Positions 11,031-62,284 of a DNA stretch of 64,000 nt are shown here, piece after piece. Under the pieces are notes generated by a model. The model searched no databases. It was not told the DNA's origin and saw only the letters and a program-made list of their open reading frames with translations. How positions within the stretch are numbered: the stretch's first letter is position 1; each line of letters opens with the position of its first letter. The translations under genes were made by a program, and so were the position numbers. This DNA comes from Darksidea phi (lineage: Eukaryota; Ascomycota; Dothideomycetes; Pleosporales; Lentitheciaceae). The stretch is taken from assembly GCA_030770425.1 (NCBI GenBank), contig JASJFT010000165.1, positions 1-64,000 on the forward strand, given 5' to 3'.

Positions 11031-12151
11031 TTATTCGTCGTCCTCCCACCACCCATCATCTAGCAGCTCCTTCGCAGTTGGACGATCTCTCCAGTCGAGC
11101 ATCATCATCTTCGAAATAAAGTCCTTGTCCTTCTTAATCACTTCCCTCTCAGTTGTCATAGAAAATGGTGTAGTTTTCTCTTTAGGGATTTCCTGCATCA
11201 AATACAAAATCGACCTGACGGTTTCGGGACTAGCAATCTCCTCAAACTTCGCGGGGAACGGGGCAAAGTAGCGGAACTGTTCCATAAGAACCCCCAGTAG
11301 GTATTCGTCATGATCGCGATCTATCCCTTTAGGCCGGAAAAGATTGAAGTTCCCGCCGTAGATCAAACTTATAAGCTAGGTTGAACGGTATTAGCATACG
11401 TTCTGAGCAGTGCATGGCTCGAGAAGGGAATAATGAGATGATGAACACGCACCACGGTACCGAACGACCATATATCAGTTGCCGTGTTCCATGGCATTTC
11501 TAGGATGATCTCCGGACTTGACCAGATCGGGGCTCCGACCATTGTTCCGGATGTGGCCCATTCCGAATCGACAGGGTAACATCCGCCTAAATCTCCAAGC
11601 TGGACGTCGGAAAATCGATTGTCACCTTCTTGGAAGTTGACAAAAATGTTATCAAGTTTGACATCTCCAGCCTCAATTAGCCAAGCATCAAGATCAAGAC
11701 GGCATACTGTCGTACCTGTATGCACATAACCATCCTCGTGGAGCACCTTTAAAGCTTCTAGGATCCTTCGAGAAACGTACTTAAGTTCTTTTCGATTCAA
11801 AGTTTTCCTAATCGATGCATCCAAAAGATCACTCTCAAGATACCTCAGAGCAATGGTTACAGGAGCAGAAGGCTCCTCGATCTCGTCAACCAAGGGCCGA
11901 AGGTAGTGGGTGCGATGTTGGAACCGTCGGAGGACATCGCGTTCGTTTTCCACCCTTGGATGACCTTGAACGCTTTTGATGACTACGGTTTCTTGCACTT
12001 GATTTCTAGGGACTGTCAGATTTCGGATAGTCAAATTCGTTTCTGATTCGGCTCACTTCGCAAACCAAACAGTCTCTTGAACCTGTTTCGTAACGGTGTA
12101 GCTCCCTATTCTACCTTTGAGAACTTGTCCAATTCGAAAGAGAGATGACAT
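11031..12151 (-). CDS. Small protein kinase (eukaryotic fold, HTD/DLG variant)
   Basis: Four exons 12151-12057, 12005-11716, 11664-11453 and 11375-11031, 313 aa; three introns of 51, 51 and 77 nt with GTGAGC, GTACGA and GTGCGT donors. The beta-3 lysine is K42 in ETVVIKSVQGHPRVENERDV. The catalytic loop is HTDVKLDN (residues 127-134), with Thr in place of the usual Arg of HRD. The metal motif is DLG (153-155) instead of DFG. APIWSSPEI is the APE-like segment, and the C-lobe ends in DWRDRPTAKELLDDGWW. This fits the large fungal group of short kinases, sometimes called RHS or crinkler-associated kinases; the substrate is unknown. The frame continues upstream of ATG 12151, but MSSLFRIGQVLKGRIGSYTV is the likely conserved start. 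Confidence 0.87.
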
Positions 12152-15646: not shown

Positions 15647-17667
15647 ATGGCACAACGCCCTCCATCCTTCAAGTTCTCCACGCGCCGCGCCGTCGCGTCC
15701 CTCGCTCTCGTCTCTGTAATCTCCGCCATCGAGAACCAGCGCAAGGCGAAGAGCCAACAGCCCGGAGAGGAAGGCTTCGCATCGCAAGATATGTCGGGCG
15801 AGCTGCAGACGATCCCGGCGCGGCATGGCGTGGCCACGTTCGTGCCGAGGGGAAGGACGATCAAGATTATAAATACGTATGGGAAACAGGTTGTTAGTAC
15901 ATGGGCGTTTAGCCTACATGCGCCGCCTGAGGAGGGTGGCGATGATGACGACGTTGGGGAGGAAGAAGTTGAGGATATTGAGGAGAAGGCAGAGGAGTTG
16001 AGGGAGGGGCTGAAGAAGGAGGAAGGTGACAATGCAGGAAAAGAACGCCGTAAAGAAGAGGTTGAGAAGGAGATCAAAGAAGAGATTGAACAACCAAAGG
16101 AGGACGCAAAGAAAGAGGGCAGGTCAAAAGACGAACCTCAACCTAACAACGACAAGGTGAAAAGCACAACCAGTGAGAAGTTGTCTCAAGGTACTTCAGA
16201 GGACCCACCCGAACAAGCGCCCGACATTACCGACCGAACCGCCGCCTCAGAGAAAAAGAGTGAAAAGCGTACCTGGGCCTCCTACCTCCCTTCCATTCCT
16301 TATCGCAGCAAGAACCAAGCGGCCGACAAAACCGACGGTAAATCGACATCAAAGGCCGATCCTAAATCAGAGAAAGAGAAGAACGAGGCTACCTCCAAGG
16401 CCTGGTCTTCGTATATCCCTACCGGCAAAGGTTTCTCCAGCTACGTACCCAACATGCAGTTGCCGGACTCGCAAGGTGTTGTGAGTGCGTTCAAGTCGAG
16501 TCATTACAGAGATCCAAATAAGAGCTACGCGGAGCAACTGTATGATTTTTCGAAGACGCCAGTCGGGGCAGGGAGTATTGCTGGTACGTCTTTGCCTAGA
16601 TCTGAACCAAGTGTGCTAATATAGATACAGCGGCGACCGGCTCTGGCACCGCATCTTCCATCTATGCTGCATACTCCGCCTACACCAAGATGAAACCCTC
16701 CAGAGACTCACAACCTCCTATGGAGTATCTCTCCCTTCCTCACACCCGCGCCTCAACGCACCGCCTCGTCCCCGCCGTCAATGACACTTTACTGACCAAC
16801 CTACGTAACCCTATTATTACACTCGTTGAAGATACTTCACCAGGCGCACACGATACACTGACCGCTGCATGCGACGCGAATCAATATGCAGCCCTTGGCG
16901 TCGACACACCCGAAGAACATGGTAGCTGCGCGGAAAACCTAGTCCTCGCCCTCAAGGAGCTGAACGAAAAGGCTGGGCTGAAAGGCACGAAAGCCGTCGG
17001 CGCAGATATCACAGTCAATATCGCGCCAACACCTCTCCACCTCTTCATGAACGCCCCCATCGAACTCGACTCATCCGTCCAAAACGAAGGTGCCGGAGCC
17101 AAAGGCGCAACGCTTAAAATCGCTGAGCCTCAAGGCAAGAAGCGAAGCTACGTCCGCTTTCGCGCAGAGCGTGATATCGTTGTTGTTCTGAGCGCTTGCC
17201 CTATGGATGTAGGCTCTCAGAACGGGGGGAAATGCATGGCTGCGAACTTTGTGGTCGAAGAAGCCGTGGAGGAAATGGAGGGATCGAAGGCTTCGCTTAA
17301 AAAGGCGGCAGGCGCGTCAAGGAGGGGAACGCCAAAAAAACTGAACGGCAAGAAGGAGGAAGGAACCACCGGTGACAAGAAAAAAGAAGGTGAAATGAAA
17401 CCACCCAACCTTCGAGGAGGTCCGCGCAAACCCGCTGCCGTAAAGGCATCCGCCGAGAGGCGAGATAGCGGTTCCGGCGATCCGCCTGAATCTGGGTTGC
17501 CTGAAGAAGAGAAGAAGGAACAAGCGAAGCAAAAAGTGAAAGAAGAGCCTAAAGCGGAGAAGAAGCAGCCAAAACAAGACGGGGAAGAGCCCAAGACCAA
17601 AAAGAAGCCCAAGAAGCTCGAGCGACGGGGTGCAAGTACAACCGCTTCCGCAAAGAGCGAGTCATAA
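15647..17667 (+). CDS. DUF1989 (urea-carboxylase-associated) domain protein with large insertions
   Basis: Exons 15647-16583 and 16631-17667, 657 aa; intron GTACGT...TACAG. The domain is split. Residues ~55-90 hold PARHGVATFVPRGRTIKIIN and KQVVSTWAF. After a ~240-residue charged insertion it resumes at ~350 with MEYLSLPHTRASTHRLVPAV, AACDANQYAALGV, HGSCAENLVLALKELN and ADITVNIAPTPLHLFMNAPI, ending near RFRAERDIVVVLSACPMDV. DUF1989 proteins accompany urea carboxylase or aminomethyltransferase-type pathways in bacteria; in fungi the reaction is not established. The ~130-residue C-terminal tail is Lys/Glu/Pro-rich and probably disordered. A hydrophobic stretch near residues 14-28 could be a short membrane anchor. 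Confidence 0.85.
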
Positions 17668-18426: not shown

Positions 18427-20441
18427 TTAAGCGCTGCAATCGTGCCACGGCACACAAGTATAGGTCGGACACCCCGCCGCCACCGTCTTGGTAACAGCCG
18501 TGGAACACCCATCAACGATCGGCTTACTAGGCGTAGGTGGGATAATTACAGTGGGCTTTAGCACCGTTGTCTCGACTTCCACAACCCTCTTCTCCACCAC
18601 CACATCTCTCTTCACAACATTGTCTACCGCACACGCCACGGAATCGTGAGGGCAGATCGGCGCAACGCATGGCGGCACAACTGTGCGGGTGACGGTGGGG
18701 CAGGATGGAGGAATGGAGGTTGGGAGTGGGACCGACTTTGTGATGGTGGGCGGGTGAGGTGGCTTAGTGGGATATGGCTTCGTTGTTGTGACCGGTTTAG
18801 TTGACTTGGTTGATTTGGTTGGCAGGATGGAGAGGAAGGTAGTTGGGCACGCGCATGACGGACACTTGTTGGTAGCTGTTTTGACAATGGGGCAGCGAAT
18901 GTCGGTGTGATCTGGATCATAGGGAGGGTCGGGAACGGGCTCGAAAAGCTCAGGCGTGTAGATGCAAGGGGGGCTGCAACCAATGCGCGGACAAGGCCTT
19001 ATGCTTGAGACTGTGGTTGAGGAGCCACAGGTGAATTGCGGGGCGCGAGCGTCGACATCGACGAGCTCGGGTGCGGCAGTAGGTTCTGGGGAGGCGTCGC
19101 GTTTGAGCCAGGAGATGTAGCCTGGACCAGTGTAGATTGGTATGGCGGGCAAAGTAGGCTTGGGAAGATTAGTTGGCCAGATGACGCCCCAACTGTCCGT
19201 TTGAGCCTCTGCTTCGGCTTCGGCTTCACGCTTGCCCCAGGTCACGGTCGCGGTGGGCTTTGGGAATGTTGGCCAAACAAAAGTATAAGTTGGTTTGCCG
19301 AGTCCAAAAGTTGGCGGAGGTGCTTCGACACCGTCGCGCTTCCCCCACGTAATTGTAGCCGTAGGAGGGTTCAAGGTTATCTCATCGCTAGGCTTGGGGA
19401 TAGGAGGGACTTCATCTGTAGGCTCATCCTCATGTTCGCTTGTAGGGATTGGTTCCGGCTCTTCTGTGGTGGTTGGCTTGGGATTTTTTGTAGTCGTCGG
19501 CTTAGGTTTTTTCGTAGTCGTAGGTTTAGGTTTTTTCGTAGTTGTGGGTTTGGGTGTTTTGGTAGTCTTGTATTGTTCTTCGACCTCGCGCCTGTTCCAC
19601 GTGATCGTAGCTGTGGGAGGGTTGAAGGTGATCTCATCGCTTGGGTCCGGCTGCTGGGGAGGGCCGATATCAGTAGGTTCCTCGTCAGGAGGGGCGATTT
19701 CCGTAGGTTCCTCTTCATCTTGACGCTTGTCCCATGAGACATATCCAGTAGTCTTTGGCGGTTTTGGCCACTTGACGGTCGCAGTCGGCTTGCCTAGCCA
19801 AAAGGTTGGCGGCGGCGGTTTAGCTTCACGTTTTCCCCAAGTCATTGTCGCCTTGGGCGGCTGGATGCCAATGCTATCTTTTCCCGTAGGAAAGGAAGGA
19901 ACATCAGGTTCACCGGGCATTTCTGGGTCCGTCTCCGGCTCTCCTGGGAGATCAGTCGGATGAGGATCATAATCGAATTGTCTCTTGTTCCAGGTCACGG
20001 TTGCAGTCACGGCCGGCTTTGTGGAAGTCTTTTTCGTAGGCCTTGGTCTTGGTGGCCAACCAGGAAAGCCAGGCTTCTCGGTCGTGGTGGGAAGGGGAGG
20101 GTCCCATGAAACCGTGAAAGAAGGGGGAGACAAGCTGATCTCATCAGTCGGCTTGGGTGGTTGCGGCACTGGGTCTTCAGGATCATCGTCTGGGTCTTCC
20201 GGTTCTGGGTCCCCGATGACCGGAGGCTCGGTTGGTGCAGGCGGCTGAATGTCCCAGCTGACCGAATATGACGGTGGGTTCAACTCAATCTGCCTAGCAG
20301 CAACATCTAATTCTGGCGCCGCCGCAGGAATAGCTCGGATGCTGACAACTGTCAGTATCCAATAAACATAGTGTATGGGGCGGCAACGTACCTAGCCACA
20401 AGGCCTAGTAAGACTAGCACGCTCTGACGGGAGGGTGCCAT
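18427..20441 (-). CDS. Secreted Pro-rich precursor with repeated Trp-x-Lys-Arg sites (kexin-processed peptide candidate)
   Basis: Exons 20441-20392 and 20341-18427, 654 aa; intron GTACGT...TCAG. A signal peptide is encoded across the splice (MAPSRQSVLVLLGLVASIRA). About a dozen copies of a short motif ending in Trp follow (SYSVSW, SFTVSW, TATVTW, KATMTW, TATVKW, GYVSW, TATITW twice, TYTFVW, TATVTW, GYISW). Seven have one residue and then a dibasic site: WNKR, WGKR, WDKR, WNRR, WGKR, WGKR, WLKR (second basic residue at 137, 188, 223, 268, 352, 388, 431). Cutting there would free peptides of ~33-82 residues. One site is followed by EAEAEAEA. A 9-residue KPTTTKKPK repeat fills one spacer (DNA 19465-19569). 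The last ~220 residues are Cys-rich (CPSCACP, CPTYTCVPWHDC) with two further KR sites. Known fungal precursors of this style include RiPP, alpha-factor-like and repellent proteins; which applies is unknown. Confidence 0.85.
19465..19569 (-). repeat. 27-bp tandem repeat encoding KPTTTKKPK units
   Basis: Inside the secreted-precursor gene, nearly four copies of a 27-nt unit encode Lys-Pro-Thr-Thr-Thr-Lys repeats. The copies are similar at the DNA level, as expected of recent slippage. The Thr/Pro-rich spacer is a likely O-glycosylation region. Confidence 0.8.
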
Positions 20442-59475: not shown

Positions 59476-62284
59476 CTACCGGATGATCACCTCCACAGCA
59501 ACTTCGTTGCTCCACCCAGCGTGCGAGTCCGTCTCGTGCCATGCTCTTACGGTATCAATCTCGAGAATGTTCTCATTGGCTTTGTTGACCTTCACACAGT
59601 CAAGCGAAACAGGACGCCCGAAGATGACCGCCATGAAGTCATTTTCGAGTGAGCGCTTCTTGAGGTCTGAGACGTAAAGACCTTCGAACAACTAAGCAAT
59701 CACTTCATTGTAGCGACAGACAAGAACCTACCATATGTGCCGAGAACCTTCAACGACGTCCAGATTCGAAGCCTTCCGGTCTCGCGATCGACATAACTGT
59801 CGGTGTTGATTATGCCAGCAGCACCACTCATTTTGCCCAGCAGACCTAGGTTAGCAATGGAGATGTTGACGGGGCCTTCTGCATGATTCTGTCGCTCTAG
59901 CTTGAAGGAATGCAGCGGGAAAGCGGACAATATCTCCCATCCTTGAAAGGGGAGTTCGAGGTGCACAAAGGCCTGGCCCTCCCGTACACTAGTAGGCTCG
60001 GTGACCTGACCTGTGGTGTGGTTTCTGACAATGTAAGTGCCCTGTTCTGCGCCAGGAAATTGATGGAGCCCGATTAGCTCTGTAACGGAGTGCTGAGTGC
60101 AGTTGAATACGCCGAGGATGCTAACTCCGGTACGGGCCATCCCCACGTAGGTAGCGACTTTAAGTAAGACTTTGTCATCGTACGAGTTGTAAGCGGACGT
60201 GCTCTTACCGACCGTATGAGGTCGAAGGGTGACGGTGTCTCCTCTTGGAGTGTTCCCGGTCATTTGGAAGATTAAGTCAACATCGTGCTTGCCTGGGACG
60301 TCCGTGATGTATATCGGACCACCAGACACACAACGAGCTGCAGCATGGAACGATGCCCATTCATGCGAAGTCTGAAACATATCCCAGTCCGGTAGTATGT
60401 TCAAGTACTGATTCAAGATGGCATTGTGCGCATTGCAAAATATGTGCCACGGATGCGACGCTGGCACTTCAGGGAAAAAGTCGTCCGAGTTTCGTAAAAG
60501 AATTCTAGGTTTGTTGGTAGGGAGCTGTGAATGGAAGATGATCTGTGGAGTTTGTGACATGCAAGAGATGGCTTTCCCAGAGAAGAATCGCAACTGATTG
60601 ACGCTCCAAGCATCCTGGTATGCACGGGTGAGCTGCCGACGATCAGTCGCATCGTCGAGTTCATCGACGAAGAATTGCGCGTCCGTCTTGACCGAATCGA
60701 CACCTGCCGAGCTGAGAAATTGGTAGAAGTCGTGATAGAAGCGGTTAACGTCCTCCTCTGCTATCACTAGCATAGTCCCCCCAGAAACTCCATTTCTCTT
60801 GCGTACGGTCGTGGTCTTGTACTCTTTCGCAAGTTTACCACTTGGCGCGATACCACCCCAGTATCCGAACTACTTATAAATCAGTCTAATTTTAAAATAG
60901 AGCTGCCCGATGACGTACCAAAGCATGCCAAACGGCGATGTGCTTGATGTTCTTATGCTTGCTCCGAATGTCTGTGACGGCAGCTTTAAGGCCCCGGGGA
61001 AACCCAATTTTGGTTGCCTCAAATTCTACCCAGGCGTTATGGAACTGAGAGCCACCCTCGTGGTCTAGTGACTGCCAGTTGTCATCGATGATTAGGTTTG
61101 AAATGTTGATGTTGTTCTTTTCCAATGAGGCAAGAGCCTCGAAGACTTTCTTTTCCTCAAGCTTCTGTCCCAAGCCGTTCCAAGTGCAATATGAGAGCCC
61201 ATCATACCAGTTCTCGAGCCATTGAGGTTTGAAGCCGTCCATCAACGCCTTTTCTTCTGCTGCTGCCTCTCCACTTGCCGTCTCATACTTTAGAACCAGC
61301 TTACGGGCGTAATACATGGTGGCAGCTATCGCAGACTCCAGAGAGTTACCGGTGGCGATGGCTAGTCTAGCGATGCCGTCCTCTTCGTTGTCATTCCTTG
61401 AGTCAATAGTAACATTGCCTGTGCCGTCATGATGGAGAGTGGTCAAGACATCGTCCACTCCGCTGACTGCAAGCAACACCAGATGAGATCCGTCTTCTCG
61501 TTCGAATGCTGCAAGTACAGTGTCTTTGTCAGGCTCAAACTTGTCTTTGCCTTGGCGGGGGGCCAACCAGGGCGACCAAAGACGAACTAAGGCGAACCAG
61601 CGGGAGAAATCTTTTGGTCTACCGAGCCTATTGTTCGAATAACCGGAAATTTTGCCAGAGGCTGCATTGACGGGGCTGGTAACCGACCAAAGAGCTGTAT
61701 CTGGAGAGTCACTCGTTTCCTTCTCTATTTGTAGATATGGAGGCAAGCCATCGACATAGTGTGAGAGGTCGTCATTGGGAAGGTTAGATGATTGATAGAT
61801 GATATGGCCGTCTGAGGTGGAAAACTGCTCATTAACCCACTTCCATGGCTCATCTTTAGTCCCTCTGAATGTGATCGTAAAGGAGATTGAGCTTCCATGT
61901 GCTGGCAATCCTTTTAAATCGATTGAAAACCATTGGCGAACAATTGATTTGTTGTCGCCATGTCGATTTACCACAATCTTCAAGCGTCAGCTGGGGAGAA
62001 TATGGCGCTGGGTGTCCATACTACAGATGGAGGCTGCGCGACAGATGTTAGACTCAAGCTGGTCCACTTCCCACGGCTTTCGAAGTTCGACCACAGCGCA
62101 ACGTCCCATGGTTTCTCCGCAGAGCTCTCAATCACGACTGTAAATTTGACCTGTTGTTGTTAGTGCCAGTCGCCGATGCGCTCCAGAAATCTCAATGCGG
62201 ACATTCGACACGTACGGACTTCTGATGAGACGGAACGATAGTAGTCTGCCCCAGAGGGGGATTGCATGTGAGCGTCGCATACAT
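59476..62284 (-). CDS. GH36 raffinose-synthase/alkaline alpha-galactosidase-like protein
   Basis: Five-exon model 62284-62216, 62150-62022, 61977-60919, 60869-59732 and 59681-59476, 866 aa and an exact multiple of three. Start MYATLTCNPPLGQTTIVPSH matches the family beginning (PPLGQ). Later blocks are WVNEQFSTSDGHII, WLENWYDGLSYCTWNGLG, ISNLIIDDNWQSLD, KHIAVWHALFGYWGGIAPSG, GVDSVKTDAQFF with the probable nucleophile D482, and ILPDWDMFQTSHEWASFHAA. Plant relatives transfer or release galactose from galactinol/raffinose; fungal members are intracellular and little studied. The junction of exons 2 and 3 is uncertain: the model uses a 44-nt intron with a CTGAC branch site, while the alternative is a +1 frameshift at 61983. 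No signal peptide. Confidence 0.85.

Follow-up and report, generated by a model that had tools for sequence, protein, structure and literature searches.

A putative family of secreted, Kex2-processed repeat precursors with Trp-x peptide ends in Darksidea phi and other Dothideomycetes

Introduction

The closest described systems to the gene reported here are the KEX2-processed repeat proteins (KEPs) of fungi. As the surveys of Le Marquer (2019, PMC6339444) and Umemura (2020, PMC7329392) describe them, KEPs have an ER signal peptide, at least three repeats separated by KR or RR and, in part, Ste13-type signatures. In its description of KEPs one further source calls their functions largely unknown (PMC9769878). 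The methods given in the 2020 survey exclude proteins with a separated sequence of over 100 aa (PMC7329392). This 100-aa filter is an extra step of that survey and not part of the general KEP definition.

Three other kinds of precursor share parts of this plan. Rep1 and Hum3 of Ustilago maydis are described as carrying imperfect amphipathic repeats of 31–55 aa with Kex2 sites, followed in Hum3 by a Cys-rich (hydrophobin) domain (PMC4617103). Ascomycete alpha-factor precursors have Kex2 sites and some Ste13-type sites. The precursors of the dikaritins (ustiloxin, phomopsin, asperipin) also show a Kex2-repeat layout.

Here we analyse a gene with a signal-peptide-like start and KR/RR-separated repeats in Darksidea phi. 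It lies in a stretch of 64,000 nucleotides, which we call the window. An earlier note on this DNA had proposed that the gene founds a family of secreted precursors, cut by Kex2 into peptides that end in [VIM][ST]-W-x.

Results

Gene model and Trp motifs

The gene lies on the minus strand at 18427–20441 and has two exons. Exon 1 (20392..20441) begins with the ATG at 20441, encodes the putative signal-peptide core MAPSRQSVLVLLGLVA and matches the start of the relatives P0002, P0004 and P0011. A 50-nt intron (20342..20391, GTACGT...CTGAC...TTGTCAG) follows, and its acceptor restores the relatives' SIRA[IL]PAA. Exon 2 (18427..20341) holds the repeat region and the Cys-rich tail, with the stop codon at 18427–18429. 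Two of the acceptors that we tried keep the frame, giving proteins of 654 aa and 638 aa. We prefer the 654-aa model because it yields MAPSRQSVLVLLGLVASIRAIPAAAPE, which agrees with the start of relative P0002, MAPSRNTVLALLSLVASIRALPAALPE. The N-terminus is hydrophobic by eye, a feature seen also in relatives such as P0002, P0004, P0011 and P0015–P0017, and with this signal-peptide-like start the protein looks secreted.

The window protein contains 16 Trp and nine dibasic sites. Seven of the nine are W-x-[KR]R (WNKR, WGKR, WDKR, WNRR, WGKR, WGKR and WLKR), each preceded by [VIM][TS]. When the residues were shuffled 20,000 times, W-x-[KR]R occurred 0.05 times on average and never more than twice. 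Given nine sites and 16 Trp, the binomial probability of seven such sites is about 2e-10. Nine of the 16 Trp end a [VIM][ST]W motif and three more stand in KW, VW or IW. Two N-terminal Trp motifs, SVSWDI and TVSWDP, have no dibasic site. The earlier note had the coordinates, the strand and the 654-aa length right and listed the same seven sites; its "about a dozen" Trp motifs is a fair count.

A Pfam scan of the whole protein gave no match up to E 10. A search of PDB sequences with a profile of the long family described below gave none up to E 0.1.

Elsewhere in the window, on the plus strand at 15647–17667, a DUF1989 match is split over two adjoining open frames (profile positions 2–42 and 39–168). 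These frames are probably one gene with an intron. Raffinose-synthase matches fall in two frames at 59700–61983 on the minus strand, probably exons of one glycosidase gene.

Predicted fragments

Cleavage at the seven sites would divide the protein as follows, all on the minus strand. The predicted N-terminal fragment (aa 22–135, 114 aa, 19987..20328) ends VTWN before KR. Two W-D units would stay uncut, IELNPPSYSVSWD at 20251..20289 and ISLSPPSFTVSWD at 20101..20139; both are read directly from the sequence, and their class is defined over the family. Then would come the peptides aa 138–186 (49 aa, 19834..19980), ending MTWG before KR, and aa 189–221 (33 aa, 19729..19827), which reads EAKPPPPTFWLGKPTATVKW...YVSWD before KR and holds the WLGKPT core of a paralogue described below. 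The next predicted peptide, aa 224–266 (43 aa, 19594..19722), ends ITWN and is followed by RR. The longest, aa 269–350 (82 aa, 19342..19587), ends ITWG before KR and includes a KPKPTTTK tandem repeat. The last two would be aa 353–386 (34 aa, 19234..19335), with VTWG before KR, and aa 389–429 (41 aa, 19105..19227), with an EAEAEAEA start like a Ste13-type leader and an ISWL end before KR. The C-terminal tail (aa 432–654, 18430..19098) has 16 Cys in four four-Cys modules and two further KR sites.

The tandem repeat in the 82-aa peptide is a 24-bp unit in 3.9 copies at 19475–19567 of the window. It encodes the eight-residue Lys/Pro/Thr spacer KPKPTTTK, and the length probably varies here.

Relatives of the long form

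A protein search that scored 7,987 candidates gave at least 19 long relatives at E ≤ 0.001. This family size is a lower bound; both long-form searches scored about 7,990 candidates sharing most words. A further search with the long alignment added one protein, P0036, a 351-aa fragment left out of all counts. By eye, the gene models of P0001, P0005, P0006, P0008, P0010, P0012 and P0013 have no start. Eleven of the relatives are named: Kalmusia, Periconia, Karstenula, Paraconiothyrium, Melanomma, Paraphaeosphaeria, Neocucurbitaria, Byssothecium, Bimuria, Lophiotrema and Delitschia. A taxonomy look-up places Delitschia and Melanomma in the Pleosporales, and we take the other nine genera to belong there as well.

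Over the 20 long forms (the window protein and its 19 relatives) W-x-[KR]R makes up 146 of the 186 dibasics, and x is Gly in 118 of these 146 sites. At eight further sites W-G-R-(D/N)A replaces W-G-K-R (one in P0005, five in P0008, two in P0018); these are possibly monobasic cleavage sites or decayed sites.

The residue after Trp goes together with the presence of KR. When [VIMF][STIK]W is followed by Gly, KR comes after it 110 times and is missing 20 times. With Asp or Glu the counts are 7 and 70, and with any other residue 19 and 20. Sites in related proteins depend on each other, so that a Fisher value for this association is only descriptive. Of the 20 long forms, 18 have W-D/E units. If units are filtered by the core score introduced below, the W-D units precede the first W-x-KR unit in all 18 proteins that have them. 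Without this filter 13 of 68 W-D/E sites, in seven of the 18 proteins, come after the first W-x-KR, six of them in P0019.

The score comes from a matrix built on 55 distinct cores (of 78) of the short forms described below. It covers the 11 residues before Trp and thus leaves out W-x-KR itself. The 99th percentile of the score at 11,810 background positions is exceeded by 43% of the 146 long W-x-KR sites and by 62% of the 76 W-[DE] sites, whereas shuffled cores exceed it in 2% of cases and 170 other Trp sites in 14%. A single unit thus seems to occur in two states, W-D and W-G-KR.

Conservation of the Trp-dibasic end

Conservation was counted over ordered pairs in three alignment sets, which hold 13 of the 20 long forms and were chosen for relatedness. 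Among 352 ungapped aligned W-x-KR units 304 keep both Trp and dibasic, 26 keep the Trp only, 15 the dibasic only and 7 neither; a further 36 are gapped. At ungapped positions of sets 1–3 the identity of Trp is 0.96, 1.00 and 0.92 and that of KR 1.00, 0.92 and 0.70. The six residues before Trp reach 0.79, 0.41 and 0.39 and the spacers 0.71, 0.47 and 0.41, so these six residues beat the spacers in one of the three sets only. The five residues before those six (0.77, 0.53, 0.55) lie above the spacers in all three. The gap fraction of the spacers is 0.23, 0.30 and 0.32, versus 0.10, 0.09 and 0.13 for the six residues before Trp.

By these identities Trp and KR vary least, and the other core residues are better conserved than the spacers only in part. 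The earlier note had named homologs that keep the Trp motifs and lose the dibasics as evidence against its proposal. Such cases exist to some extent, as 26 of the 352 units and as the dibasic-free N-terminal Trp class.

A short paralogue in the same genome

A search of the D. phi genome (51.4 Mb, 477 contigs) gave a second gene, on contig C334. Its two exons encode 261 aa; other acceptors give 259 or 255 aa. A signal-peptide-like start is followed by units of the form I-x-I-G-K-P-S-T-E-[IV]-T-W-G-KR with eight dibasic cuts, and the last unit reads ...TEVGWN and then stops. Judged by its sequence, the paralogue looks like a textbook Kex2-repeat precursor built from the W-G-KR unit of the window gene. 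Its core also occurs in the window gene, as FWLGKPTATVKW in the window and FWLGKPTSTIIW in the paralogue. A profile-profile comparison of the long and the short family gave a probability of 99.1, a kind of score that repeats and low complexity can inflate.

The codon pattern for WGK(R/S)-D/E has 33 matches in the whole genome, three in the window gene, five in the paralogue and 25 unclustered, against 22 for a backward control. Among the unclustered matches contigs C290 and C440 have two each, about 80–100 kb apart, and C334 has one more, far from the paralogue. As these 25 matches are scattered, the exact motif is clustered in no third gene.

The paralogue has 16 relatives. Eight are named: Alternaria (2), Bipolaris (4), Boeremia and Patellaria, the last of which a taxonomy look-up places in the Dothideomycetes outside the Pleosporales.

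The C-termini of the 17 short forms are W-S in 10, W-N in one, WGKE in three and otherwise in three; P0021–P0024, among those ending in W-S, are close relatives and not independent. The protein hence stops at W-x in 11 of 17 short precursors, without a following dibasic. No other observation speaks as strongly for W-x as the mature end. The three proteins that stop at WGKE are P0026, P0028 and P0029. Internal sites of the paralogue (L004, 3920–4624) and of other relatives read WGKEKR, which suggests WGKE as a second mature end, the same as WGKEKR minus KR.

If the precursor were never cut, the window gene would encode a Pro/Thr-rich cell-wall protein, its Trp motifs and Cys tail serving the intact protein and its dibasics incidental. 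This explanation suits the Trp motifs that lack a dibasic, present in 18 of 20 long forms, and the conserved Cys tail with its near-fixed spacing. Incidental dibasics would not be expected exactly two residues after Trp in 146 of 186 cases, nor KR after W-G in 110 of 130 cases while W-D/E lacks it in 70 of 77. The paralogue has little beyond its signal-peptide-like start and its units, and it stops at W-x. In addition, no confident fold is predicted for the repeat block (see below). We regard an uncut wall protein as improbable.

The W-x end also bears on amidation. Gly is the classical amidation donor position. With Gly at x in 118 of 146 long sites, the peptides could resemble animal Wamides, W-G-KR becoming W-NH2. 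However, the amidating enzyme PAM is reported as missing throughout fungi (PMC6529398), and natural W-S and W-N ends have no Gly donor. On these two grounds we reject amidation, the least probable of all the readings considered here. PF01082 and PF03712 gave no match in the genome, as did their controls. With the enzyme reported missing, W-G most likely ends as a free acid.

Another reading takes the released peptides for ligands rather than wall material: signals like hormones or pheromones, whose Trp-x end is recognised by a receptor. In its favour, the units of the short forms are closely similar, their fragments have a median of 23 aa, and their W-x ends are natural. Some sites have Ste13-type leaders as described for alpha-factor (PMC6339444). 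Nonsynonymous differences in the core are also fewer than synonymous ones: between units within a gene, pS is 0.61 and pN 0.18 in the paralogue (pN/pS 0.30) and 0.72 and 0.41 in the window gene (pN/pS 0.56), rough values near saturation. Against a ligand, the long-form units vary widely in length and sequence, and W and KR are their most constant residues. We find a ligand role rather unlikely for the peptides overall; it fits the short form better.

The Cys-rich tail

In 17 of 20 long forms Cys is confined to the tail. Nine long forms have 16 Cys, nine have eight, one has 13 and one 18. The four modules of the window tail have the spacings 11-4-3, 9-2-1, 10-4-6 and 11-4-5, and those of the family are near-fixed, mostly 11-4-3, 9-2-1, 10-4-6/7 and 11-4-5. 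The eight-Cys tails correspond to the last two modules of the 16-Cys tails. A genome search for the tail gave no copy except itself.

A hydrophobin has an eight-Cys pattern with CC doublets. A CC pair is absent from 19 of the 20 tails, including that of the window protein, whose last spacings are 10-4-6...11-4-5. Pfam gave no hydrophobin on the window protein and nine tails, and the nine tails had one chance-level match. Hence, the tail does not look like the hydrophobin domain of Hum3.

AlphaFold2 on the tail alone (9 sequences) reached a mean pLDDT of 37.9, which is useless. The whole protein (20 sequences) reached 44.8, with no confident fold for the repeat block. The last tail modules (aa 571–590 and 641–654) have block means of 79–90 in this whole-protein run only, one of two predictions. 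Foldseek against the PDB gave 0 matches.

Processing enzymes and peptide chemistry

The genome has a kexin open frame with Peptidase_S8 and P_proprotein domains. Candidates for Ste13 and Kex1 are four DPPIV_N and 22 Peptidase_S10 (carboxypeptidase-S10) matches, a number of which are parts of a single gene. A residue pair xA or xP comes right after KR at 41 of 146 long sites and at 13 of 54 short ones; at the majority, KR precedes something else.

The window protein contains KREAEAEAEA, and such a leader would fit an alpha-type mating pheromone of the source fungus. The KEP survey text gives PYG[LM]P[IV]G as the pheromone of the Pleosporales (PMC6339444). This motif is absent from the window protein. 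When the genome was searched for its pattern, the single match had no listed own-strand open frame of at least 30 aa. The alpha-factor precursors are alike in their Kex2 sites and some Ste13-type sites, and the last unit of most short forms ends at the stop codon. Unlike them, the precursors here have no PYG[LM]P[IV]G or two-Cys peptide, and the long form has a Cys tail. A mating pheromone is highly unlikely.

The plan of signal peptide, repeats and Kex2 sites is equally that of a dikaritin-type cyclic RiPP precursor, a reading that the earlier note had argued against. Its argument holds: the genome has 31 UstYa (DUF3328) and 27 tyrosinase matches, but none lies on the window contig (C74) or on the paralogue's contig, and unlike dikaritin cores those found here have no constant Tyr. 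A Pfam scan of 19 window ORFs, out of 41 listed with 150 aa or more, gave no P450. We see very little chance of a dikaritin. The 31 and 27 matches on other contigs, which include exons of a single gene counted separately, may mean that the genome has real dikaritin-type RiPP clusters elsewhere.

The predicted long-form peptides have on average a strongly acidic, Pro-rich head and neutral, beta-prone last 13 residues, although single peptides vary. Over 131 long fragments the mean charge per residue is −0.196 in the heads and +0.032 in the last 13 residues; over 35 short fragments it is −0.188 and −0.040. The predicted peptide aa 189–221 has no acidic head.

Discussion

We propose, with a probability of roughly 0.75, that the window gene encodes a secreted, KEX2-processed repeat protein. 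That it is a processed precursor is very probable. The family claimed by the earlier note, with [VIM][ST]-W-x ends, is supported by at least 19 long and 16 short relatives; the Kex2-repeat reading is also backed by the paralogue in the same genome, by natural W-x C-termini and by KR-EA-type sites. The profile match of the two families, the lower share of nonsynonymous differences between units, the kexin frame and the lack of a confident fold in the repeat block also count in its favour.

The precursor would work as follows. After the signal-peptide-like start come an N-terminal block of uncut W-D units, the W-x-KR block and the tail of four-Cys modules. Going by known enzymes, kexin would cut after KR or RR, a Kex1-type carboxypeptidase would strip K and R from the cut ends, and a Ste13-type dipeptidase could trim KR-EA and KR-DA starts. 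The products would be linear, unmodified peptides, six internal fragments of 33–82 residues after the N-terminal one of 114, mostly with acidic Pro-rich heads and a neutral, beta-prone [VIM][ST]-W-x end. The disulfide-rich tail would be released along with them. At the hyphal surface the peptides might act as amphipathic, self-assembling wall peptides like Rep1 and Hum3 of Ustilago maydis, which is a weaker inference than the processing.

Given processing, a surface role of the peptides is possible, though somewhat short of an even chance. A surface-active, repellent or Hum3-like role is our similarly tentative first guess, and a signalling peptide the second. The long form resembles Rep1 and Hum3, as those are described, in its imperfect repeats and Cys-rich end domain, a likeness of plan and not of membership. 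Peptides of a Rep1-type repellent form surface-active, amyloid-like fibrils; for the peptides here the computation gives an amphipathic layout. In contrast to Rep1 and Hum3, the long form has a Cys spacing that is not hydrophobin-like, the Trp stamp and a class of uncut units. Against our reading, the fragments of the window type are long and uneven, unlike compact KEPs, and the near-identical copies in the short form are more ligand-like.

On its sequence features, the best reading is that of a KEP family with two unusual traits, a unit with uncut W-D and cut W-G-KR states and a tail of four-Cys modules. The window protein has seven W-x-[KR]R units, where KEPs need three repeats between KR/RR. 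With its first 20 residues trimmed in place of the signal peptide, it also has separated sequences of 117 aa at the N-terminus and 164 aa between two KR, beyond the 100-aa filter. A stretch of more than 100 aa occurs in all 20 long forms if terminal stretches count and in 10 of 20, the window protein included, between dibasics only; it occurs in two of 17 short forms. The length filter given in the 2020 survey would thus seem to leave out long precursors with a Cys tail.

The family is apparently unnamed. In the passages of the two KEP surveys covered here, W-x-KR is not among the named motifs (PMC6339444, PMC7329392). The nearest motif named there, YVW[GA][GS] (PMC6339444), also contains W-G. 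Literature searches by motif strings gave no paper on fungal precursors by title, and none for WGKR, Kex2 and fungal together. The survey tables may already list the short form as a KEP type that has a number and no name; the three Pfam names listed for type G-9 (PMC7329392) occur in none of the 17 short forms, a weak test of identity with that type.

Tentatively, at slightly less than even odds, we suggest that linear, Trp-tipped secreted peptides form a widespread and unnamed system in the Dothideomycetes, made from precursors of two types. In the long type the residue after Trp would set the state of a single repeat unit: W-D/E would stay uncut, mostly at the N-terminus, and W-G-KR would be cut. 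This type would largely escape the KEP survey through the length filter.

What our analysis adds is a family with a simple, Gly-biased signature, W-x-KR, and two types of precursor in one genome. The natural W-x end predicts where the peptides end, which makes the prediction directly testable by peptidomics. If the surface role is true, the ascomycetes would have in these peptides a counterpart to the repellents of smuts.
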